Of a stretch of DNA of 24,169 nt, positions 1,840-24,169 are shown one piece after another. Numbering within the stretch: the stretch's first letter is position 1; each line of letters starts with the position of its first letter. The notes under the pieces were generated by a model that worked only from the letters and a program-made list of their open reading frames with translations, did no database searches and was not told where the DNA came from. The position numbers were made by a program, and so were the translations under genes. This DNA is from a virus: IMG/VR virus record IMGVR_UViG_3300046744_000384, positions 1 to 24,169 of that record; one strand, written 5' to 3'.

Positions 1840-3138
1840 TTAAACTTCTGTATAAAGTATTTTTTCTGTTTCAGTGCTAAACTGCGCTGTTCTCTTATCG
1901 TATTTTCCATCTCTAAATATTCCACCTTCCATTTTACCTTTCATCATTCCATTGCCATAAATGTAACAATCTTTTAATACACACGTCTGGTGAACGTATG
2001 AGCTTTCTAATTTAGAAGAATTTATCTGAGTAGATTGATAAAAATTAGATGAATGAATATCTGATCCGTTTACATCACAGCTAAAGAAATCACATTCTGT
2101 AAATTCTCCTCTGAGAAAGCACCTAATAAATTCATACCCTCTTAAATCCACGCAATAAGGAAGATTACCTCCCTCAACTTGAATTGTCCCGTTGTCAGAA
2201 TCATAGTTAATGTGCCCAACATTTAATTCACCATGGGTGAAAAGCGTCAAAACTCTTTCTCTAATATTAGGCCAATGTAAATCTATTATTTTTTCATTGT
2301 CTTTAAGATCAACTGTTAGTTTTACCTTTCCATTCCATCCCTTGTCGATATTTCTCCAATTAGATCTACTTTTTATAATTTTTTCATTTTTAGAAAGAAT
2401 TTTTCTAAGCTCTATTGCATTTAACGGTGTAAATGAAGTTGATGAAGTGCTATCCCATAATTGAGATATAAATAGCTCTAACATTTGCAATATCTTAGAA
2501 GTTTTCTTTTCCCAATCAGCACCACCCAAATATCTAAATTCTAAATAGTTTTTGTGTCTTTTTTCAAAGTTAACTCCATAGTATTTAGAATCAGGGAAAG
2601 TAAAATTACTAGGTGTAATATTTAAACCATCAAAGAAATAAGTGTCAGATTTTGGTAAAATAAATTTAATTGATTTAGCGTAGGCTGAATCCTTTCTTTC
2701 AGGAAAAAACTTGAATACTTGACTTTCTTTAAAATCTAAAATAAATTTAAGAACATTCATTTTAGAAATTCTGTGTTTATTTTCTATTTTATTAGTATCG
2801 AATGAAAGATTTAAATGAATAGAACTTCTATCATTAGTATATCCATTTTCTTCTATCCATTTACATACCTTGATAATCATCATTCTACCTGAATGATATG
2901 GCTGTGCACCAGTTACAAGTTCCATAAGCTTTTCACCTCCACTCATATCTGGTTCTATTTTGAACTCATCTCTAGTAACCTCAAAATCGCTATGTGCCTT
3001 AGATTCTACTCTAATCTTTTTACCTAAAAGACTAGCCAGTTCTTTGGCGGTATCGTCTATGGACTTGTTAGAATAAAATTCAAATTCTACCCCGATAAGA
3101 GCATTCTCCAATATTTTAGAGTTATTGATGTTGTTCAT
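1840..3138 (-). CDS. GS-fold amidoligase (COOH-NH2 ligase) fused to a pentapeptide-repeat domain
   Basis: This 432-residue protein has two parts. Residues 10-230 match the amidoligase pattern (PF12224-type): GVEFEFYS (16-23, the G-x-E-x-E metal/ATP motif), FKIEPDMS followed by MELVTGAQPY (59-81), SSIHLNLSF (105-113, the central His motif) and NYLEFRYLGG (197-206, the E-F-R motif). Such enzymes are related to glutamine synthetase and are predicted to form amide bonds between a carboxylate and an amine, using ATP. Residues 330-405 show a five-residue periodicity (for example DLRGYEFIRCFLRGEFTECD) typical of a right-handed pentapeptide beta-helix. The substrate is unknown; the gene's position among baseplate genes suggests modification of a virion protein or a cell-surface peptide, which is inference. 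A GATATATAAA motif lies 26 nt upstream, and no Shine-Dalgarno sequence is seen. Confidence 0.75.
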   Translation of the reverse strand: MNNINNSKILENALIGVEFEFYSNKSIDDTAKELASLLGKKIRVESKAHSDFEVTRDEFKIEPDMSGGEKLMELVTGAQPYHSGRMMIIKVCKWIEENGYTNDRSSIHLNLSFDTNKIENKHRISKMNVLKFILDFKESQVFKFFPERKDSAYAKSIKFILPKSDTYFFDGLNITPSNFTFPDSKYYGVNFEKRHKNYLEFRYLGGADWEKKTSKILQMLELFISQLWDSTSSTSFTPLNAIELRKILSKNEKIIKSRSNWRNIDKGWNGKVKLTVDLKDNEKIIDLHWPNIRERVLTLFTHGELNVGHINYDSDNGTIQVEGGNLPYCVDLRGYEFIRCFLRGEFTECDFFSCDVNGSDIHSSNFYQSTQINSSKLESSYVHQTCVLKDCYIYGNGMMKGKMEGGIFRDGKYDKRTAQFSTETEKILYTEV

Positions 3139-3246: not shown

Positions 3247-4533
3247 TTATAATTTAAGAAATACCTTTCTGGTATCTTCTTCAACTCTAATAATTTGAAC
3301 TGTAATATCGGCGCCTTTAGATATTTCTTTAATGTCGATATTATCTGGAAATTCTGAAACATGTAATAAACCTACTACACCTTCTTCAACCTCAACAAAT
3401 AGACCATAATCTTTAGTAGACTTTACCTTTCCGATAACTTCTGTCTTTTTATTATATCTTTGTGAAATACCTTCCCATGGGTCTATTTTCTTTTCAGCTG
3501 GAGAACCCTGTACAAGTGTTATTTTTCTTTCGTTAATAACTTCTTTTACATAAAAATTAATTTCAGAACCCGGTTCTAACGTTCTTTCTCTATGTAATTT
3601 TGCAGTTTCTTTATCTAAATCATTAACATGTATCATGCCCGTTAAACATCCTTCAAATTCTACAAAGACACCATATTTTGCGGAACCTGTGACATGGCCT
3701 GTTCTTTCTACTGAAATATCTTCTTGTATTTCTTTAATCTTATTAGGAATTAAGGCTCTTAAATAAGCTCTATGAGAAACTACAACAGTTCCTTTTTCTT
3801 CAGAATAACTTACTGGAACTACATACATATCTGTTCCAATAATAGATTCAAAGTCGTGTAATTTATTAACTCCAGCTAAGGAACCTGGCATAAAACAATC
3901 TACACCTTGAACTTGTACAATATATCCTCCGCCTGGAATCATTTTAATAACTGTTCCACTATATGCTGTATTTCCTTCATTTATAGATTCTACAATTTCT
4001 CTTACCACCTTTGTTTTTAGACCGGCGGCAACTGATCCTACCATATACCTTTTGACGTTCATAGATTTATCAGCTATTAACTGTACGTCTACTTCTACGC
4101 CTGTTTGTAATAATTCTCTTACCTCTGCGGTTTCTCTAGATAAGTCTACATATATTAGTTCCCTATAACCTACGTCAATGGATGCCCAGTCTGAGTCTAC
4201 TCCATAAACTTTTCCAGTGTAACTTGAACCTAGTTGTAAATTATATTGTGTATTAGAAGTTAATGAATAACCCTCCATTAAGTCTAGTAATTCTTGGGCG
4301 TAAGGTTCCCTACTATAAACTTTAACACCGGGAGGTGCCTTAACATGTGGGTTTGGTTTTCTAAATTTAGTTGGACAATCTGCTTCGTAAGCTTCCCAGT
4401 TAAAATCTTCAAGTGGTTCTGGGGAATTTAAAAGGCTTTCATCTTTTGAAGTTTCTTCGATTTTTACTTCTACTTCTTGTGTTTTTGTAGAGATTCTTTG
4501 TCTCTTTTGTTTAATTGTTGTCTTTGTTGACAT
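3247..4533 (-). CDS. Ribosomal protein S1-like protein with four S1 domains
   Basis: A 428-residue protein. After a charged, low-complexity N-terminus (about 1-65) it has four S1/OB RNA-binding repeats at about 101-168, 187-256, 274-342 and 363-428. Repeats 3 and 4 are the clearest: TGHVTGSAKYGVFVEFEG with TGMIHVNDL, and IGKVKSTKDYGLFVEVEEG with VGLLHVSEF. The linker DPWEGISQRY is the typical bacterial S1 linker. Cellular S1 usually has four to six repeats and brings mRNA to the 30S subunit, and in Bacteroidota, where Shine-Dalgarno sequences are rare, S1 or other features are thought to matter more. I infer that the phage copy biases translation or mRNA handling toward phage messages. The gene has its own motif (4573-4581) and terminator (3199-3226), so it is a monocistronic unit within the tail module. 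Confidence 0.9.
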   Translation of the reverse strand: MSTKTTIKQKRQRISTKTQEVEVKIEETSKDESLLNSPEPLEDFNWEAYEADCPTKFRKPNPHVKAPPGVKVYSREPYAQELLDLMEGYSLTSNTQYNLQLGSSYTGKVYGVDSDWASIDVGYRELIYVDLSRETAEVRELLQTGVEVDVQLIADKSMNVKRYMVGSVAAGLKTKVVREIVESINEGNTAYSGTVIKMIPGGGYIVQVQGVDCFMPGSLAGVNKLHDFESIIGTDMYVVPVSYSEEKGTVVVSHRAYLRALIPNKIKEIQEDISVERTGHVTGSAKYGVFVEFEGCLTGMIHVNDLDKETAKLHRERTLEPGSEINFYVKEVINERKITLVQGSPAEKKIDPWEGISQRYNKKTEVIGKVKSTKDYGLFVEVEEGVVGLLHVSEFPDNIDIKEISKGADITVQIIRVEEDTRKVFLKL

Positions 4534-15750: not shown

Positions 15751-17175
15751 TTAAGCTTCTGGCGTTTCTTCACCTACTGCTGAATCAGATTCTTTCATCT
15801 CATTCACTTTCTTAGAATATGCTTCGATCATTTCATTACATGCAGCTTCATAAGCTTCAACAGAATAATCTTCTTTCATTTCTTTAAGGCATTTAGCAGC
15901 TAATCCACCAACTAATGCAGCATTTTCTTTCATGTAAGTTTCTACTGTATGCTCATCATGTGCATCAGATTCCCATGCTTTAGCTTCGTTTTTACATGCT
16001 TCATACACCTCAGATAACATATCAGAAACTGCTTTAGTTTCTTCAGCTTCTTCTTCTGCAACTTCTTCAGATTCTTCAGATTCTTCAGATTCAGAAATTT
16101 CTTCATTACCTGCGCCGTCAACTGTATCTTCTAATTCAGTTTCTAATTCTTTTGACTTATCTTCAGGAGCTTCAACATCGTTATCAACTTCTTTAGTTTC
16201 ATCTTTTAAATCTTCAGCAGGTAAACCAGCTTCTTCTCCAGATTCAGTAATTGTCTTTACTGATTCTGAGAATTCTTCAAGATGTTCCATGTCTATTTCT
16301 CCCTCTCCTTTTAGCGCTTTTTGTACTTCTTTAGACTTTAATAACTTTTCTATTTCTTTAATGTCGTATGGTCCGTCACCAAGCTTTTCTTGAGCAAAGT
16401 CAGCTAGAATATAATATTGATTAGAAGAATATCCTTCACCATCTCTAAAATCTGCAACTTCTTCGATGTCTGCTTTAGCAATTTTCTTACCTTCAGCAAC
16501 TTTTTCAGATTCACATACACAAGGTTCTTCGTTACATGCTCCACATGATTCTTCAACCGTTTCAGTTTCAACCGATTCAAATGATAAAGAATCAATAGCA
16601 ATGTTCATTGAAACCATTTCCATTGGTTTAGTACCATCTTGATAGTCTACGGTAGCCATACTACCTGATTTGTTAAAAGATAAAATCTTAAATCTTCCAG
16701 GGAATCTGATATTTTCACCATAAACTGTTTCGCCTTTTTCGACGGCCTTTATAGCTTTCTTAATTTTAGCGTGAATACCTTCATTTACTTCTTCAGTTTC
16801 AACGGATTCAAATTGTAAAGAATCAATTCTGATATTCATTGAAGCCATTTCCATTGGTTTAGTACCATCTTCATAGTCCACTGTTGCGAACATATCTCCA
16901 AGTTCTATGATTTTAAATCTTCCAGGAAATCTAACGTTTTCTCCGTAAACAGTTTCGCCGTTCTTAATTGCTTTTTGAGCTTTCTTTAATTTAGGGTGTA
17001 CACCTTCATTTACTTCTTCAGTAGATTCTTCTACAGCATCACCATTACCCTGAACTTCTTCCGCTTCTTCTTCTGAATGTTCAACTGGCTCAGCAGTAGC
17101 AACTACATCTTGTTGCACTTCTTCAGCTCTATCCATTTCAGATAAAAACTGTTCAAATGATTTTAATTTTGCCAT
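15751..17175 (-). CDS. Acidic, internally duplicated putative capsid-internal/core protein
   Basis: A 474-residue, strongly acidic protein. The N-terminus MAKLKSFEQFLSEM matches the shared motif of this cluster; L-S-E at its end fits a T4-type prohead protease site. Two tandem repeats of about 75 residues follow (54-128 and 129-206), each starting EVNEG[V/I]H and containing GETVYGEN[V/I]RFPGRFKI and DGTKPMEM. Residues 211-221 hold four Cys (CGACNEEPCVC), possibly metal-binding. Then come a helical stretch, a Glu/Ser-rich low-complexity region (about 355-380) and a helical C-terminal domain (390-460). It has its own promoter motif 25 nt upstream and a strong terminator, suggesting high expression. 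I infer a head core, scaffold or internal protein cleaved during maturation; a generic acidic DNA-mimic is the main alternative. Confidence 0.6.
   Translation of the reverse strand: MAKLKSFEQFLSEMDRAEEVQQDVVATAEPVEHSEEEAEEVQGNGDAVEESTEEVNEGVHPKLKKAQKAIKNGETVYGENVRFPGRFKIIELGDMFATVDYEDGTKPMEMASMNIRIDSLQFESVETEEVNEGIHAKIKKAIKAVEKGETVYGENIRFPGRFKILSFNKSGSMATVDYQDGTKPMEMVSMNIAIDSLSFESVETETVEESCGACNEEPCVCESEKVAEGKKIAKADIEEVADFRDGEGYSSNQYYILADFAQEKLGDGPYDIKEIEKLLKSKEVQKALKGEGEIDMEHLEEFSESVKTITESGEEAGLPAEDLKDETKEVDNDVEAPEDKSKELETELEDTVDGAGNEEISESEESEESEEVAEEEAEETKAVSDMLSEVYEACKNEAKAWESDAHDEHTVETYMKENAALVGGLAAKCLKEMKEDYSVEAYEAACNEMIEAYSKKVNEMKESDSAVGEETPEA
16558..16791 (-). repeat. Tandem repeat unit 2 inside the acidic protein gene
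   Basis: Encodes residues 129-206. It is similar to the preceding unit, with a four-residue length difference, and shares EVNEGIHAK, GETVYGEN, RFPGRFKI, DGTKPMEM and SFESVETE. The DNA is also clearly alike (for example around 16600-16640 and 16840-16870), so the duplication is fairly recent. Confidence 0.85.
16792..17016 (-). repeat. Tandem repeat unit 1 inside the acidic protein gene
   Basis: Encodes residues 54-128, the first of two tandem units. Both begin with EVNEG, where V-N-E followed by G is close to a prohead protease site, so each unit could be released as a separate fragment. That is inference. Confidence 0.85.
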
Positions 17176-17200
17176 AATTATTTGTTTTTAATTTTTTTAC

Positions 17201-17212
17201 TTAATATATATC
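17201..17212 (-). promoter_or_regulatory. Candidate late promoter motif (GATATATATTAA)
   Basis: GATATATATTAA on the minus strand, 25 nt before the ATG of the 474-residue gene. It is a slightly longer variant of the motif, in the 43-bp gap after the gene 17219-17749. With the terminator at 15694 it delimits a single-gene unit. Confidence 0.45.
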
Positions 17213-17218
17213 CCTTTT

Positions 17219-17749
17219 TTATAAGGTTTTGATGTTATTTCTTTTTATCCAATCTTCTAACTTTTTAGTGGCTGCGTCAAACATTCTACTTCTACTATAA
17301 TCCTTTCCATGATTTTTAAACCATTCTTTAGTAATATAGTATGCTGGTTCTACTGGTTCGTCGTTAGCAACCATGTCTTCAACCATTTTACTTAATCCTA
17401 GTGCAATCACTGCACCTTCCCATTCGAACGCAGTATATCCTCTAATATCATTCCATTTGTCATTAAGAAATTGACTACCTGTTTTACCAAACTCTTTATC
17501 TCTTAGTTTACGATCTGCGTATATTTTAAACAATTCGTCTCCTAAAGAATTAGTCCATATTGACATGTTCTGGTGTTCACTGTCATACACCTTATCCATC
17601 ATACCCGCTTTAATAATTTCTTTACGAGTCTTTTCTATCCATTTGGGGTATTTAATTTTACCGTTACCTTTAATCCACTTGTCGTAGTCGTATTTGCTAA
17701 CTCCTTCGTTTAAGGATGTAAACTCTTCAAATAGTTTTAGGTGCTTCAT
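17219..17749 (-). CDS. Putative capsid-targeted internal protein (176 aa)
   Basis: I choose the ATG at 17749 over the one at 17788. It sits 4 bp after the upstream stop (TAATAAGATG) and gives the N-terminus MKHLKLFEEFTSLNEGVSKY, matching neighbouring proteins. The motif M-K-x-L-K-x-F-E-x-F is followed by L-N-E-G, a possible prohead protease site. The remaining 160 residues are rich in Lys and Trp and mostly helical (KWIKGNGKIKYPKWIEKTRK, EWFKNHGKDYSR). The mature protein looks basic, like T4 internal proteins IPI-III. The enzymatic function is unrecognised; no catalytic motif is visible. A packaged protein delivered with the DNA is the inference. Confidence 0.6.
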   Translation of the reverse strand: MKHLKLFEEFTSLNEGVSKYDYDKWIKGNGKIKYPKWIEKTRKEIIKAGMMDKVYDSEHQNMSIWTNSLGDELFKIYADRKLRDKEFGKTGSQFLNDKWNDIRGYTAFEWEGAVIALGLSKMVEDMVANDEPVEPAYYITKEWFKNHGKDYSRSRMFDAATKKLEDWIKRNNIKTL

Positions 17750-17753
17750 CTTA

Positions 17754-18068
17754 TTAATAGTCTCTATGACCTCCGTTAATTCTTTCAATTTTATCGTATT
17801 CTCTTCTTGAATAATTAGAAGAATCGCCTGAAATTGAAATGTCTCTATTTCCGTATAAACCCATTTTATCTAATCTATCGATGATGTCTTCGGCAATAGG
17901 ATCAGGGGCATCCATTCCTATAAGAATGTCTATTTCATTCCATTTAGAAACAAACATTACAGTTATTGGATATTTTGATTTTTTCAGCGCTTTAACTACC
18001 TTATCAAAATCTTTTTCGGTAATCTTAGCTTCACCTATAAACTGTTCAAATAATTTTACTTTTTTCAT
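17754..18068 (-). CDS. Putative capsid-targeted internal protein (104 aa)
   Basis: The N-terminus MKKVKLFEQFIGEAK has the shared motif and then I-G-E before A, an exact fit to the T4 prohead protease rule ([L/I]-x-E then small residue). The likely mature part begins at A14 and is a small alpha/beta domain: TEKDFDKVVKALKKSKYPIT, VMFVSKWNEIDILIGMDAPD, PIAEDIIDRLDKMG. Its strand/helix order would fit a ferredoxin-like fold, but this is only a guess. It starts 2 bp after the upstream gene's stop. Confidence 0.6.
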   Translation of the reverse strand: MKKVKLFEQFIGEAKITEKDFDKVVKALKKSKYPITVMFVSKWNEIDILIGMDAPDPIAEDIIDRLDKMGLYGNRDISISGDSSNYSRREYDKIERINGGHRDY

Positions 18069-18070
18069 AA

Positions 18071-18721
18071 TTAGCCGTTCATTATTCTTATTAATTTGTC
18101 TGCAAAAGATTTATTGAAACCATAGTTAGAAGAAAGGCCTATCGTAGAATAATTAGTACCTGATTCGTGATTAACAAAAACTCCGCCGTCTGATGAATTA
18201 AATTCATCTAATATAAATAATAGTTCGTAAATTTCTTGAAATAATTTATCTTTAGCCGCAGAGCTAATTCCACCTCCACATGTAACTGCGATTAAATAGC
18301 TTCTTCTGCCACCTGGTGTAAAATTAGATCTACCTTCAATTTTACCACCGACGGTTGATCTCATTGTACCTGACCATCCGCCTGCTGCAGGAACTGAAGA
18401 TTGTTCAGTTTCATATTTCTTATATTTCTTTATGACTTTAGAAATTTCTTCTGCTAATTTAATAGCGTTTCTTCCTTGAAATATTTGATAAGTGTCTTTT
18501 TTATCTCCTCCAGCTACATTGATATGTTCTTTATAATTAGATAACTTACCCGATTTAAGCATAGATTCTATCTCTTTATATTGAGATTGGTATGAGTCTC
18601 CCCATTTAGATATAGCCATTTTAGCTATTGACAATTTATCTTCTAATTTTGCTCTAATTCCTTTTTTACCAAAAGCAGCAGATTCATTTATAAAAGATTC
18701 AAATAGTTTTACATTTCTCAT
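18071..18721 (-). CDS. Putative capsid-targeted internal protein (216 aa)
   Basis: The N-terminus MRNVKLFESFINESAAFGKK has the shared motif followed by I-N-E before S, again a candidate prohead protease site. The mature protein would be basic: helices KLEDKLSIAKMAISKWG and AIKLAEEISKVIKKYKKYET, a Gly/Ser-rich loop (AAGGWSGTMRSTVGG), and a beta segment (RRSYLIAVTCGGGISS). The start overlaps the upstream stop as ATGA. No known enzyme family is recognised. Its charge and position fit the other cluster members. Confidence 0.6.
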   Translation of the reverse strand: MRNVKLFESFINESAAFGKKGIRAKLEDKLSIAKMAISKWGDSYQSQYKEIESMLKSGKLSNYKEHINVAGGDKKDTYQIFQGRNAIKLAEEISKVIKKYKKYETEQSSVPAAGGWSGTMRSTVGGKIEGRSNFTPGGRRSYLIAVTCGGGISSAAKDKLFQEIYELLFILDEFNSSDGGVFVNHESGTNYSTIGLSSNYGFNKSFADKLIRIMNG

Positions 18722-19062
18722 GTTAATTTTATCTGTAATTTTAGAGGAGTTTTACCAGGAATTATTCTATGATATACTCCGGCCTCTATCTTTATATATC
18801 CTTTTAAAGGGATGGGTATTTTATTGTCGTATTGAAACTTCCAGTCGTTATCTTCTATCGCATTGATAATTCTATCCTGCTCATCGAAGTGCCATTTAAA
18901 AAGATGGTTAGGTTGATTAGGTTGAAATTCCCTGATGATTATATTTTCTGAAATAATTGTCTCTGTAAAAGGAAGAGTTTGGTCATCTATCATAGAAATC
19001 ATTTCATTCATTGACATTGTTCCACATCCGCAATTTTTACATTTGCAATCTTCGTTTACCAT
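18718..19062 (-). CDS. Small cupin-like protein with N-terminal Cys cluster (114 aa)
   Basis: The ATG at 19062 (ATGGTAA overlap with the upstream stop) is preferred over the upstream one at 19116, which would add 18 residues inside the neighbour's coding region. The N-terminus has DCKCKNCGCG, four Cys in eight residues, likely metal-binding. The rest resembles a small single-domain cupin: NHLFKWHFDEQDRIINAIED, PIPLKGYIKIEAGVYHRIIP, GKTPLKLQIKL, with His and Glu residues at about the places used for metal in cupins. It lacks the capsid-targeting motif of its neighbours. The family call is from pattern memory and the substrate is unknown. Confidence 0.5.
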   Translation of the reverse strand: MVNEDCKCKNCGCGTMSMNEMISMIDDQTLPFTETIISENIIIREFQPNQPNHLFKWHFDEQDRIINAIEDNDWKFQYDNKIPIPLKGYIKIEAGVYHRIIPGKTPLKLQIKLT

Positions 19063-19595
19063 GGTTGGTCGCTCTTTAGTCCTAATTGTTTTCCGAATAG
19101 AGTAGGTCCATAGCATGCCCAGAATCCATTTTTATTAGGGTCCATTTTTGACATTTTATCACATCCATGTCTTGCCCAAAAATTAGCAGCTCTACCTGGA
19201 TCGTCGTTTTTAACAGTGGACGAAGGATCTCCCCATTCTAACTTTTTAGCAATGACGTTTCCTTCTTTATCAGTTCTTCCAGTGTTTCTATAAACTATGA
19301 ATTTCTTTTTTCCACCTCTTTCTGGTGAATCTAATTTTACGTTTATTTGTTTTCCTCCTCTCGGTTTATAAATAGCTTTTTTACCTACTTCTAAGTTTTT
19401 TGCCATCCATCCTGAAGGACCCTTTAAAATAATATTGTTTTTATCCCAATATTGTTTTACCTCTTCAAAGAGTTTTGAATATGCATCGCTTCCTAATCGA
19501 AAGAAAGAATTAGTTAAATCTAAGCCCTCATCAACATGGGCCTTTAGCTCAGGAGAAACGCTATCCCACTCTTCAAATGTTTTAATAAACTTCAT
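19056..19595 (-). CDS. Putative capsid-targeted protein with a conserved RHxCD-type C-terminal domain (179 aa)
   Basis: The N-terminus MKFIKTFEEWDSVSPE matches the cluster motif, with W in place of F; no clear I/L-x-E site follows, though V-D-E-G is at 21-24. Residues about 95-165 match a small domain that I recall from many phages and some giant viruses: KKKFIVYRNTG, DPGRAANFWARHGCDKM, NGFWACYGP, with conserved R, H and C residues. The function of that domain is unknown to me. A GATATATAA motif ends 3 nt before the ATG. It is the first gene of the internal-protein cluster. Confidence 0.6.
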   Translation of the reverse strand: MKFIKTFEEWDSVSPELKAHVDEGLDLTNSFFRLGSDAYSKLFEEVKQYWDKNNIILKGPSGWMAKNLEVGKKAIYKPRGGKQINVKLDSPERGGKKKFIVYRNTGRTDKEGNVIAKKLEWGDPSSTVKNDDPGRAANFWARHGCDKMSKMDPNKNGFWACYGPTLFGKQLGLKSDQPW

Positions 19596-19598
19596 AAC

Positions 19599-19607
19599 TT
19601 ATATATC
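19599..19607 (-). promoter_or_regulatory. Candidate late promoter motif (GATATATAA)
   Basis: GATATATAA on the minus strand, 3 nt before the ATG at 19595, heading the putative internal-protein cluster. It overlaps the end of the UV endonuclease gene (stop at 19607-19609). Confidence 0.5.
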
Positions 19608-20539
19608 TATGATAGAACGAGCTCCTTTAAAAACTCTTTCTTATATCTCTGCAGTGCAAGTTCTTTTGCCTTTGCTTCGAGCTCGATATCCAGATCCATG
19701 CCGTATGTTTCGATGTGGTCATATACGTAATCTGCATGTGCACGTTTGTTGCCTTGTGTGGCATCTTCGTGTATTTGTTTGCATGAAGAATAGTGGCATA
19801 GTTGTCGAATTCCTTTAGGCCACGATTTAGCAGCAAGTTCTAGTGCTTCTTTTTCTGGCATAGGATCTTCGTAACACCAGTGATGATGATAGTCGAATGT
19901 GATCGGGGTTTTCCCTGTCAGTAAATGTATGTCATATAAATCTTGTACAGAATATTGTGCTGTTTTATCGTCGTTTTCGATTACAAGTCGATTCGCTGCA
20001 CCTGGAACAAGTCTTTTGAAATTATTTGCAAATCTTTGCTTAGTAGCTTCTTTATCGTCATATGTTCCGCCGATATGAATATTAATAGCGGAGTATGGGG
20101 TTTGAGGAAGACCGAGCATATCCATAATTTCTGAATGTTGTCGTAAATCTTTAAGAGCTTTTTTTACAACCGCTTCATTAGGAGAAGCAAGAACATTGAA
20201 AGGACCGGGATGAAAAGTAAGTCTTTGTCCGTATTGCTTTGCTAGTTGACCTGCACCTTTAAGAAGATTAGAAAGTTTATCATAATCGGGAAGATCGGTT
20301 AATTCATATTCAGACATCCATGGAAACATATCACTTGACATACGATACATTGTTATATCATTCTTATAGTTCCACTTGATAATTTCTATCATGTCCTTAA
20401 TATTTAATACTGCAAGTTCCGATGCGTATTTAATACCCTTTTCTTCAAAGGTTCTTTTAATCATTTTTCTACCAACATATATGTTTGATTCTTTTTTAAG
20501 AGTCATGTTGATACAACAATATCCGTAGTCTGCTGCCAT
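19607..20539 (-). CDS. uvsE: UV-damage endonuclease (UVDE/UvsE family)
   Basis: A 310-residue TIM-barrel nuclease, close to the usual length of bacterial UVDE. The enzyme nicks DNA 5' of UV photoproducts, starting repair. Family motifs are in order: GYCCIN (6-11), RMSSDMFP (66-73), LTFHPGPFNVLASP (107-120, metal-binding H110), INIHIGGTYDDKE (152-164, H155), RLVIENDD (184-191, E188) and FDYHHH (215-220, D216). The nearby gene is transcribed in the same direction behind 10 bp. Its base composition looks less AT-rich than its neighbours, in line with acquisition from a host. A phage could use it to repair its genome after sunlight damage in surface water, which is inference. Confidence 0.95.
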   Translation of the reverse strand: MAADYGYCCINMTLKKESNIYVGRKMIKRTFEEKGIKYASELAVLNIKDMIEIIKWNYKNDITMYRMSSDMFPWMSEYELTDLPDYDKLSNLLKGAGQLAKQYGQRLTFHPGPFNVLASPNEAVVKKALKDLRQHSEIMDMLGLPQTPYSAINIHIGGTYDDKEATKQRFANNFKRLVPGAANRLVIENDDKTAQYSVQDLYDIHLLTGKTPITFDYHHHWCYEDPMPEKEALELAAKSWPKGIRQLCHYSSCKQIHEDATQGNKRAHADYVYDHIETYGMDLDIELEAKAKELALQRYKKEFLKELVLS

Positions 20540-22052: not shown

Positions 22053-22649
22053 TTATAAAAACCTTTGGGTAAGTTTATTTAATGGATATTCATTGTCTTC
22101 AGATTCCATTTTTTCTGGATGCCATTGTACTGCCCATATTTTATTGTCTAAATCCTCAAAGGCTTCAATAACAGAATACGAAGGATAAGAAAGATGTGTT
22201 GCCTTGAAGTTATTTGATAACACGCTACAGTGCTGATGATGCCTTGAATTAACCGTTGTTAATGTTCCATTTAAATCTTCAACTGCATGAAACTGAGATG
22301 GCTTTCCGCTATGATCTATGTTCTCTGAAAAGTCTGCTGATTTATGATCTTCTACTATTGCATCAGATAAATCTTCTACCTTTCCTCCAAAATAATGATT
22401 TAGGATTTGCATTCCTCTGCATATTCCCAATATTCTATTATTAGAATCTAAAGCCTGTTTAATCCATACAAATTCCCTGGCATCTCTTTCTTCATCTTTT
22501 CCAATGTCTGCTCCTCCACATAGTAACAGGGGTCCTTTAACTTTACGTCTAAGATCGAGCCAAATTATTTCATGACCAAACCTAACAAGCCAATTTTGAA
22601 TTGACTCCCTTTCTCTTTTTCCTCGTGGCGGTGCTACATAAATAATCAT
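22053..22649 (-). CDS. Class I glutamine amidotransferase-like protein (peptidase C26 type)
   Basis: A 198-residue protein with the complete catalytic triad of the family: GICRGMQ (Cys77 as nucleophile) and QWHPE (His177, Glu179). LLLCGGADIG (41-50) and VNSRHHQHC (133-141) are typical of gamma-glutamyl-GABA hydrolase/PuuD-type C26 members. Such enzymes hydrolyse gamma-glutamyl amide bonds or release ammonia from glutamine. No synthase domain is attached. The start follows a transcription terminator by only a few bases and has no Shine-Dalgarno sequence. The window also encodes an amidoligase (1840-3138), whose relatives often occur with this family, so the two may act together. The substrate is unknown. 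Confidence 0.9.
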   Translation of the reverse strand: MIIYVAPPRGKRERESIQNWLVRFGHEIIWLDLRRKVKGPLLLCGGADIGKDEERDAREFVWIKQALDSNNRILGICRGMQILNHYFGGKVEDLSDAIVEDHKSADFSENIDHSGKPSQFHAVEDLNGTLTTVNSRHHQHCSVLSNNFKATHLSYPSYSVIEAFEDLDNKIWAVQWHPEKMESEDNEYPLNKLTQRFL

Positions 22650-22687: not shown

Positions 22688-23248
22688 CTACGCTTTAAAC
22701 GTAGAATTTACTCTATCGACAATTTTATTATCCTTGTACGCTCCTTTAAAATGCTTAACTAATTCTTTATTAGCCTTCTTTTTATCTGAGCTCGATAGTT
22801 TATTAAACCTATCTTCTATTGCAGAATTATTTCTCTGAGCAGCTCTATATTTGCCACCGTCGTCAATGTATTGATAATAAAAATCATAAGACTTGGCATA
22901 TTTTAGGAAGAGCTCTAGATCTGACATGTTTTCTTTTTCCAGTCTAGATTTTAAATCGCTTGATTCTATTTTCTTTTTATTAAGATAAAATTCCCACTGA
23001 CCTCTCCAGTTTCCAACCTTAAACATGTGGATTGTATATTTACCTACTTTAGCTTCAAACTTAATTCCTTTATCTTCTATAGAAACATCCTTTATAGATT
23101 TAATCCATTTATCTTTAAAGGTTGGCATTAATTTTTTAAGAGTTAAAAATGCATCTTCCTTTAATTCTTCAGGGCTACCCCATCTACTTCTAGGATGTTG
23201 ATAATCAGAATATTTCTGATAATTTTCAAATGTCATTAAATGTTTCAT
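22688..23248 (-). CDS. Lys-rich protein with capsid-targeting-like N-terminus (186 aa)
   Basis: The N-terminus MKHLMTFENYQKYSDYQ resembles the cluster at 15.7-19.6 kb (M-K-x-L-x-x-F-E-x-[Y/F]), with M instead of K at position 5 and no clear I/L-x-E site. The body is basic: FLTLKKLMPTFKDKWIKSIK, a beta pair (KGIKFEAKVGKYTIHMFKVG, WEFYLNKKKI) and a helical end (SSSDKKKANKELVKHFKGAY). A GATATATAA motif ends 3 nt before the ATG and a terminator follows, so it is a single-gene unit. It may be another packaged protein; the family is unrecognised. Confidence 0.6.
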   Translation of the reverse strand: MKHLMTFENYQKYSDYQHPRSRWGSPEELKEDAFLTLKKLMPTFKDKWIKSIKDVSIEDKGIKFEAKVGKYTIHMFKVGNWRGQWEFYLNKKKIESSDLKSRLEKENMSDLELFLKYAKSYDFYYQYIDDGGKYRAAQRNNSAIEDRFNKLSSSDKKKANKELVKHFKGAYKDNKIVDRVNSTFKA

Positions 23249-23276: not shown

Positions 23277-23618
23277 TTACTTCCAGAATATTTGTATAGA
23301 TATTAATATCACTGTTAATAATAAAGACACTCCGGTCTTTGCGGTGATACCTTCGTTCATAAAGTAATATGTCATAGCCGTAAATATAAAGATACCGCTC
23401 GCAAACCCTATGAACCTTCCAGGCCATAATAGCCCGTCAAAATGCTCAACAACTTGTTGAGTAGCCTTAATTAGAATGTAACTAATAATAGAACCAAATC
23501 CTATCGCAACTGGCCATGGATTCTTTTTAAACCAAGGCCAAACAAATTGACCATTCGTTTGAATCCAAATAAGACCTTGTCCTAAAAGGAATAATAAAAA
23601 ACCATAAAAAAGTTTCAT
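23277..23618 (-). CDS. Small membrane protein with about four transmembrane helices (113 aa)
   Basis: Hydrophobic segments: residues about 3-20 (FYGFLLFLLGQGLIWI), 35-55 (WPVAIGFGSIISYILI), 68-88 (FIGFASGIFIFTAMTYYF) and 94-112 (TGVSLLLTVILISIQIFW). Short charged loops lie between them. No signal peptide or catalytic motif is visible. It begins within TAATG at the end of the ribonuclease HII gene, so it is coupled to it. Its function is unknown; in phages such proteins often act at the inner membrane during takeover or lysis, but nothing in the sequence shows this. Confidence 0.7.
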   Translation of the reverse strand: MKLFYGFLLFLLGQGLIWIQTNGQFVWPWFKKNPWPVAIGFGSIISYILIKATQQVVEHFDGLLWPGRFIGFASGIFIFTAMTYYFMNEGITAKTGVSLLLTVILISIQIFWK

Positions 23619-24169
23619 TAAAATAAAGAGTTAGTAGTAGTTAATAGATGTGAAATAAAGGATGGTCTGTGATGTTCGCTTGATCCGTTTTCCTTAATTG
23701 CGGTTATATGTTGTTTAGTTCCATAGCCTTTATTAGAATTCCATCCATAGCCGGGTGTCTCTTCATCTAAGGTTTTCATCAAAAGATCTCTTTCTGTTTT
23801 TGCCAAAATAGATGCCGCGGCAATGGAAGAATATTTATTGTCTCCTCCTATTATGGTTTTAAAAGGTTTTCCATCAAATCCATGAAATTGATCTCCATCA
23901 ACTAAAATAAAATTAAAGGGATGTGATTGACATGTTTTAGCGAGTGCTATTCTCATGCCTTCTAGAGTTGCTCTTAAAATATTAGTATTTTCTATAACGT
24001 CTGTGCCGATATGTTCTACTGTGTAGGCTATCGCATTTTCTAGCACTATCCGCCTAGCTTCTTTTCTTTGAGCTTCGTTTAATAGTTTAGAATCTTTAAT
24101 TAAAGGATGATTAAAACCATGTGGCATTATACATGCGGCAACTGTAACTGGTCCCGCCAAGGCTCCTCT
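23618..24169 (-). CDS. rnhB: Ribonuclease HII (partial, 5' end outside window)
   Basis: The frame is open to the window edge and reads RGALAGPVTVAACIMPHGFN. This is the end of the family motif DEAGRGALAGP, so the true start and the first catalytic Asp-Glu lie beyond 24169. The TTG at 24160 is not the start. Other family blocks are present: DSKLLNEAQRKEA, LVDGDQ, KYSSIAAASILAKTERDLLM, NKGYGTKQH and HRPSF. RNase HII cleaves RNA in RNA-DNA hybrids and at single ribonucleotides; in a phage it could remove primers during replication. T4 uses an unrelated FEN-type enzyme for this. The stop overlaps the membrane protein start (TAATG). Confidence 0.95.
   Translation of the reverse strand, partial: RGALAGPVTVAACIMPHGFNHPLIKDSKLLNEAQRKEARRIVLENAIAYTVEHIGTDVIENTNILRATLEGMRIALAKTCQSHPFNFILVDGDQFHGFDGKPFKTIIGGDNKYSSIAAASILAKTERDLLMKTLDEETPGYGWNSNKGYGTKQHITAIKENGSSEHHRPSFISHLLTTTNSLF

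Follow-up and report, generated by a model that had tools for sequence, protein, structure and literature searches.

A shared N-terminal leader with a prohead-protease-type site marks a variable cassette of putatively packaged proteins in a group of related phages

The closest described system is that of the phage T4 internal proteins IPI-IPIII, unrelated proteins with a common short N-terminal leader, MKTYQEFIAE. In the parts of the literature available to us, Ip1, Ip2 and Ip3 inhibit type IV restriction and at least 10 such proteins are reported in T4-related phages (PMC12373910); the T4 internal proteins are called basic, and IPIII genetics assigns targeting mainly to residues 4 and 7 and processing to residues 8 and 10 (PMC9026906). 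Head-packaged, ejected proteins are also described, again in partial texts, in the SPN3US/PhiKZ-type giant phages and as DarA/Hdf of P1, with processing by a prohead protease in SPN3US (PMC5694885, PMC7411985, PMC10052503, PMC12810830). Here we analyse a 24,169-base virus record (IMGVR_UViG_3300046744_000384, the whole of which is called the window below). Besides tail and baseplate genes it has a six-gene cassette on its minus strand (15751-19595), in which five genes open with a common leader. The likeness of this cassette to the SPN3US/PhiKZ-type and P1 ejection proteins lies in head packaging and ejection, which we infer here from sequence; those proteins are not known to us to have a comparable short modular leader in common. 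The leader is very probably a capsid-targeting signal functionally equivalent to that of T4, marking an exchangeable set of packaged proteins, many of them probably ejected counter-defence factors.

The consensus leader is MK-x-[IVL]-K-L-F-E-x-F-[ILV]-x-E. That it opens five of six consecutive genes had been claimed in an earlier note made from the letters of the window, and this is confirmed, with genes and leaders on the minus strand as described there. The [IL]-x-E sites to which that note had drawn attention, IGE/A, INE/S and LSE/M, with a later LNE/G, are present (the slash marks the predicted cut). The genes and leaders are as follows, with lengths in amino acids (aa).

15751-17175, minus strand: 474-aa acidic leader protein, starting MAKLKSFEQFLSE and then MDRAEE; the conserved member of the set.
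17137-17175, minus strand: leader of the 15751 gene, MAKLKSFEQFLSE; predicted cut LSE/M after E13.
17219-17749, minus strand: 176-aa leader protein, ATG at 17749; family of 5.
17705-17749, minus strand: leader of the 17219 gene, MKHLKLFEEFTSLNE; predicted cut LNE/G after E15.
17754-18068, minus strand: 104-aa leader protein, variable-slot gene; family of 4, missing at the same place in several relatives.
18030-18068, minus strand: leader of the 17754 gene, MKKVKLFEQFIGE; predicted cut IGE/A.
18071-18721, minus strand: 216-aa leader protein, variable-slot gene; family of 11, alignment of 9.
18683-18721, minus strand: leader of the 18071 gene, MRNVKLFESFINE; predicted cut INE/S.
18718-19068, minus strand: cassette gene without leader, 116 aa from ATG 19068.
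19056-19595, minus strand: 179-aa leader protein MKFIKTFEEW, starting MKFIKTFEEWDSVSPELKAHVDE and then G; possible displaced cut VDE/G at residues 21-23.
19527-19595, minus strand: leader region of the 19056 gene, ending with the possible displaced site; [VIL]xE in all six family members.
22688-23248, minus strand: doubtful member, starting MKHLMTFENY; no protease-type site at residues 11-13.

The mechanical open reading frame (ORF) of the 17219-17749 gene begins at TTG 17788, the in-frame ATG being at 17749; displaced sites such as that of this gene are present in other leader ORFs too. In the 19056-19595 protein the site at residues 11-13 is absent, and [VIL]-x-E is seen at residues 21-23 in all six family members; as the whole family is conserved throughout, this is weak evidence for a site. 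The 22688-23248 gene had been proposed as a possible seventh member. It starts with MKHLMTFE, but by eye [ILV]xE is found at residues 11-13 neither in its product nor in the seven relatives found, and hence its membership is doubtful.

Six of the 34 called genes of the window (the sixth being 22688-23248) match the N-terminal motif, with 0.004 expected from the internal rate of the contig, and thus the leader is far beyond chance. A search for the leader in related phages, suggested in the earlier note, yielded 22/311, 11/200, 4/296, 8/216 and 17/288 called genes in five large related contigs, that is, 4-22 genes per contig against 0.025-0.07 expected in each. The total over the six contigs is 68 gene-start matches versus about 0.24 expected, a few of the 68 being probably spurious. 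The leader is recovered also when gene starts are compared without a preset motif, both in the window and in related contigs. The T4 control of this motif-free method is positive but weak, since MKTYQEFIAE is found only as a single gene pair, ranked below the homing-endonuclease starts. At least 120 stretches in viral contigs match the codon pattern of the leader; the same codons in scrambled order match none there, and the real pattern has no match in the cellular genome collection. A scoring matrix placed 355 start-codon ORFs from 278 sequences over the threshold, compared with 1/20,790 in the null, the many loci including near-identical contigs and deduplication being by the first 50 residues only. 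Three motif matches are probably no real members: L134:17248 (MNDLPDFDEW), L126:17324 and L131:8242, the last being a PGA_cap protein without the site. In the literature searched (open-licence PMC only) there was no match to leader strings and no paper on the leader.

To assess the shape of the leader, we used 121 leader ORFs selected solely by residues 2-10; they come from 153 loci fetched by means other than the leader pattern. The motif [ILVM]xE occupies residues 11-13 in 93 of the 121 and lies within residues 11-25 in 112, the background being 0.87% per position. In a separate set of leader ORFs, selected by a score, 17 of the 23 listed without a site at 11-13 have one by residue 25. The information content is 2.01, 1.86 and 3.01 bits at residues 11, 12 and 13, then drops to 1.22 at residue 14, 0.75 at residue 15 and below 0.5 at residues 16-20; residue 14 is mostly A (35), S (20), K (19) or G (13). 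As judged from these profiles, the fall of conservation after E13 is the signature of a removable targeting signal, putatively cut at [ILV]-x-E. The codons of Leu6 are TTA (160), CTA (124), CTT (13), CTG (6) and TTG (6); synonymous codons thus vary within the leader, so that selection acts on the protein. While the leader differs in sequence from T4 MKTYQEFIAE, an alignment by eye sets the four functional positions of T4 IPIII, residues 4, 7, 8 and 10, against F7, F10, residue 11 and E13.

The conserved 474-aa protein has relatives in 74 loci (16 loci for the 216-aa protein). Its C-terminal 90 residues are matched by 31 distinct ORFs from 75 loci, 29 of which have the strict leader; of the other two, one has a variant start, MASIKKFDEFVSE, and one is a fragment. 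Its relative in locus L216 has a different start. The protein contains two similar repeats, each directly preceded by VNE/G, as if modules with flanking cut sites were inserted. The leader-bearing relatives are 112 to 474 aa long.

A prohead protease, which the earlier note had advised seeking, was found in related genomes. Pfam Peptidase_S77 (T4 gp21-type) matches over the curated cut-off in 12/12 large related records and the protease is present in 8/9 further records, the T4 positive control matching as well; the window itself, a 24-kb fragment, has no match. In T4, gp21 and gp22 are separate genes, whereas here the S77 protease shares one ORF, of 640 aa in G004 and 615 aa in G012, with a scaffold-like region. 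Such protease/scaffold ORFs are the following.

L101:5510-7432, minus strand: protease/scaffold ORF, 640 aa.
L115:5337-7184, plus strand: protease/scaffold ORF, 615 aa.
MA9V-1 126501-130541: protease/scaffold ORF, 1347 aa.

The gene order portal - small leader-type gene - protease/scaffold - major capsid protein (MCP) is observed in G004, G012, G006 and phage MA9V-1; the portal and MCP are named by PHROG match in G004 and by likeness to G004 in G012 and G006, and in MA9V-1 the MCP is named by search and the portal only from its size and position. This order resembles T4 20-67-68-21-22-23, with the leader-type gene standing where T4 has gp67/gp68. The gene between portal and protease has variant leaders in G006 (MKHLKTFKNYSNLTE) and MA9V-1 (MKTFTCFINE), and G012 has a further leader gene between protease/scaffold and MCP. 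At the place of LTE/A in T4 gp23, 22 non-T4 MCP starts have, by eye, [LI]-x-E with D, N or S as the next residue. The MA9V-1 gene just before the protease (OR050627, 126193-126450) represents a second, T4-like leader type, MKTFTCFINE/A, which the pattern finds in 7 genes.

The leader can also be compared with that of the named phage PAU. Twenty PAU genes match M[KR][TSGN][LIV]..[LM][YF]E, with 0.02 expected from the internal rate, and many of them adjoin the portal, protease and MCP genes. The repeated PAU leader, e.g. MKTISKLYEAKLNE/A, is alignable by eye to MKHI-KLFEQFINE/A but is not identical to it: in all 20 genes the residue after [LM][YF]E is compatible with a cut there, and seven have [KR]LNE. 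Five genes carry the note 'internal capsid protein' in the PAU record (gp70, gp142, gp154, gp199 and gp270), and four of these five have the leader (P about 7e-5). According to the available part of PMC5646251 (Table 1), the PAU MCP has 585 aa and its mature form, by N-terminal sequencing, 520 aa; the E of LME is residue 64, which puts the cut at this point or at most one residue away. No description of the PAU leader as a targeting system was found in the literature searched, including that part of PMC5646251.

The cargo behind the leader is highly diverse. By post-leader similarity, 351 leader proteins of at least 60 aa, from 278 sequences, form 156 families with 97 singletons, the families being blastp single-linkage groups in which distant relatives may be split. 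The earlier description of the cassette proteins as mostly Lys-rich proved half right: lysine makes up 9.1-14.3% of the five leader proteins against a window median of 9.1%, and one of them has a net charge of -76. Lysine richness as a common feature of the leader proteins is not supported, as only 36.5% of the 156 representatives are net basic and the median is about neutral. In the Pfam scan, covering 148/156 representatives, 22 families match at E 0.001, including Tad3 (9e-22), Acb1, zeta toxin, phage lysozyme, GNAT and a cytidylyltransferase-like family.

Acb1 and Tad3 were sought in 47 records each (50 loci, some sharing a record). Tad3 is present in four of the 47, with the canonical leader on 3/4 proteins; Acb1-like proteins are present in 12, seven of them over the cut-off, with the canonical leader on 8/12. 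Residues 47-244 of the Tad3 cargo match residues 7-190 of PDB 9b7d (E 6e-34); compared with Tad3 itself (PF25185, 9b7d) the cargo is longer by about 46 N-terminal residues, which include the leader, and in all three proteins aligned a further [IL]NE site directly precedes the Tad3 domain. Profile and solved-structure match thus identify a Tad3 anti-Thoeris protein with putative activity. The likeness to Acb1 (PF23474) comprises the Pfam match, both H-x-T motifs, invariant in eight aligned proteins, and the fold: in the model, residues 1-18 have a predicted local distance difference test score (pLDDT) below 50 and the remainder is confident, the best solved folds being Acb1 and then other 2H phosphoesterases. 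The difference is that most of the proteins here bear the leader; in two homologs from outside this group, of Maribacter phage Molly_5 and of an uncultured phage (LR756508), the domain lies near the start of the protein. By profile and motifs, the Acb1-like cargo is of the Acb1 type, directed against the cyclic oligonucleotide-based antiphage signalling system (CBASS), with putative cleavage of the CBASS cyclic nucleotide. In G044, five leader-bearing genes follow in succession, including Tad3 and Acb1 with one gene between them. No paper on packaged Acb1 or Tad3 was found in the same open-licence literature. The 482-kb virus record G014 (locus L191) has leader-pattern matches and an S77 protease, and its Acb1-like protein is without the leader.

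One condition raised in the earlier note was the leader occurring on clearly cytoplasmic enzymes. In five contigs, none of the 135 genes recognised by homology to T4 has it. Some enzymes do bear the leader: the Acb1-like ones are of the effector type expected, as is the Tad3-type inhibitor that also bears it, and the cytidylyltransferase-like, zeta-toxin-like, GNAT and lysozyme ones are readable either way. The window's own cargo gave nothing secure in the Pfam/PHROG scan, where a weak Peptidase_C25 match fell under the cut-off, and the 18071 protein gave a poor structural model (mean pLDDT 65), with no fold match at E 0.001.

The cassette varies between relatives. The slot between the 18718 and 17219 genes is occupied by the 18071 and 17754 genes in the window and in L002, has no leader gene in L004, L006, L009, L021, L023 and L135, and has another leader gene in L008 and L178. 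L216 has these genes in a rearranged order, and its cluster includes an Acb1 with the leader, an HExxH protein whose start is MKHIDNYSDFINE, and a GNAT protein. The last (L216:6619-7527, minus strand, GTG start) apparently has two leaders in series, MKFVKLFEDFVSE and LKFEEFITE, and is perhaps a fusion of two tagged genes.

Taken as a system, the cassette resembles the T4 one in the short leader common to unrelated proteins, an aromatic residue or F followed by the [ILV]-x-E cut-type site, the gp21-family protease, the head gene order, variable gene content and counter-defence cargo. It differs in having a leader of 13 aa, of the MKHIKLFEQFINE type, and up to 22-24 tagged genes per contig, compared with three in T4. 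Moreover, the cargo here is mainly not basic, basicity being typical of the T4 internal proteins and not defining, and it includes Acb1-like and Tad3 proteins, classes that the available part of PMC12373910 does not name for T4 internal proteins.

Among named records in which a related structural protein occurs, the host is written as Prevotella in 15, Tenacibaculum in 5, Sphingomonas in 2, Chryseobacterium in 2 and Flavobacterium in 1, and six are uncultured. Sphingomonas is also the host named in the PAU record, but we take the PAU host strain to be really a Sphingobacterium (Bacteroidota). The hosts of the related phages are probably Bacteroidota. Hence a host phylum different from that of T4, as proposed earlier, is likely.

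The proposed mechanism is as follows. Before DNA packaging, the leader would bring about docking of the tagged proteins in the prohead core. The S77 (gp21-type) protease would then cut after [ILV]-x-E, releasing the mature proteins inside the head, and DNA would be packaged around them. At infection, at least many of the tagged proteins would exit with the DNA. The 15751 protein and the small portal-protease protein of relatives look like conserved core components; the remaining tagged proteins would be interchangeable, and many would probably be counter-defence factors, on hand as soon as infection begins. The T4-like packaged-effector reading of the earlier note is supported in this form, none of the refuting checks that were run having clearly contradicted it.

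A number of observations weigh against this mechanism. Nine of the 121 leader ORFs have no [ILVM]xE anywhere in residues 11-25. Simply counting [ILV]xE[ASG] close to all N-termini gives a weak and uneven rise (0.63 to 2.61-fold, with G001 and MA9V-1 below 1), which was not used as support; some of the four motif matches in G001 are probably spurious. T4-type late promoters show no clear enrichment upstream of leader genes. Flavobacterium phage MaF61 has no S77 match though its MCP start is similar, the portal-to-protease interval of Tenacibaculum phage PTm1 lacks a leader-type gene, and motif-free comparison reveals no clear repeated leader in PTm1 and pT24. In PAU, gp70 is without the leader, and the 'internal capsid vertex protein' genes gp1 and gp10 are outside the 20, which makes the wider count 4/7; moreover, the evidence basis of these annotations was not found in the record. 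Finally, the leader is missing from one of the four Tad3 homologs and from one of the 12 Acb1-like proteins, and another three of the latter have only variant prefixes, with [LIV]xE.

The tagged proteins might be packaged and cut but serve mainly as prohead core or scaffold parts, degraded or retained, with no ejected effectors. The conserved and acidic 15751 protein and the small leader-type protein recurring between portal and protease would fit such a role, and T4 gp67 and gp68 are core parts of this kind in the available text of PMC9026906. However, core parts hardly account for 156 cargo families with 97 singletons, for different leader genes at one locus, or for cargo such as Tad3 and Acb1-like proteins, whose relatives act on cytoplasmic immune signals; we consider this explanation unlikely. 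Still less probable is that the leader directs proteins elsewhere, be it to a replication compartment, a membrane, a host protease or a partner protein, with [ILV]xE being no prohead cut. The leader-bearing cytidylyltransferase-like, zeta-toxin-like, GNAT and lysozyme enzymes could be taken in this sense, but the site is by eye of the same kind as in MCP starts, and the head-gene order, the PAU annotation, the match to the T4 targeting and processing residues and the absence of the leader from all 135 T4-homologous genes point to the prohead.

The shared starts could, finally, reflect a recombination or expression module, that is, 5' DNA used for swapping or translation and encoding a peptide without a role. 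Leader genes are indeed gained and lost as units, and AT-rich words are mildly enriched upstream of them. But it is the amino acids that are kept while codons vary, as at Leu6, and the site is often retained though shifted by a few residues. On the variety of codons and these displaced yet kept cut-type sites we reject the module, to which we leave hardly any probability. The reading of the leader as a capsid-targeting signal remains the best.

Several other genes of the window were identified, all on the minus strand. The product of 3247-4533, within the tail/baseplate gene run, has S1 RNA-binding repeats (Pfam S1, 2e-20), like ribosomal protein S1, and that of 1840-3138, with structural genes on either side, has a putative amidoligase domain (Pfam Amidoligase_2, 1e-5). 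Further, 19607-20539 encodes the UV endonuclease UvdE, 22053-22649 a class-I glutamine amidotransferase-like protein and 23618-24160 RNase HII.

If the leader acts as proposed, the T4 internal-protein principle extends from three proteins to over 150 cargo families, probably in another host phylum, and the leader becomes a sequence tag predicting phage proteins delivered with the DNA. It seems reasonably probable that a widespread jumbo-phage lineage, probably of Bacteroidota, has a general protein-loading code, by which at least 20 interchangeable tagged genes in some genomes pre-load a counter-immunity kit with Acb1-like nucleases and Tad3-type inhibitors, usually thought to be made after infection, and that the tag could reveal new anti-defence genes from sequence. 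Anti-CBASS and anti-Thoeris proteins would then be on hand at time zero, ahead of immune signalling, and the untyped majority of the tagged families would be candidate new anti-defence genes. The leader may also serve as a new tag by which proteins of choice could be directed into phage heads.

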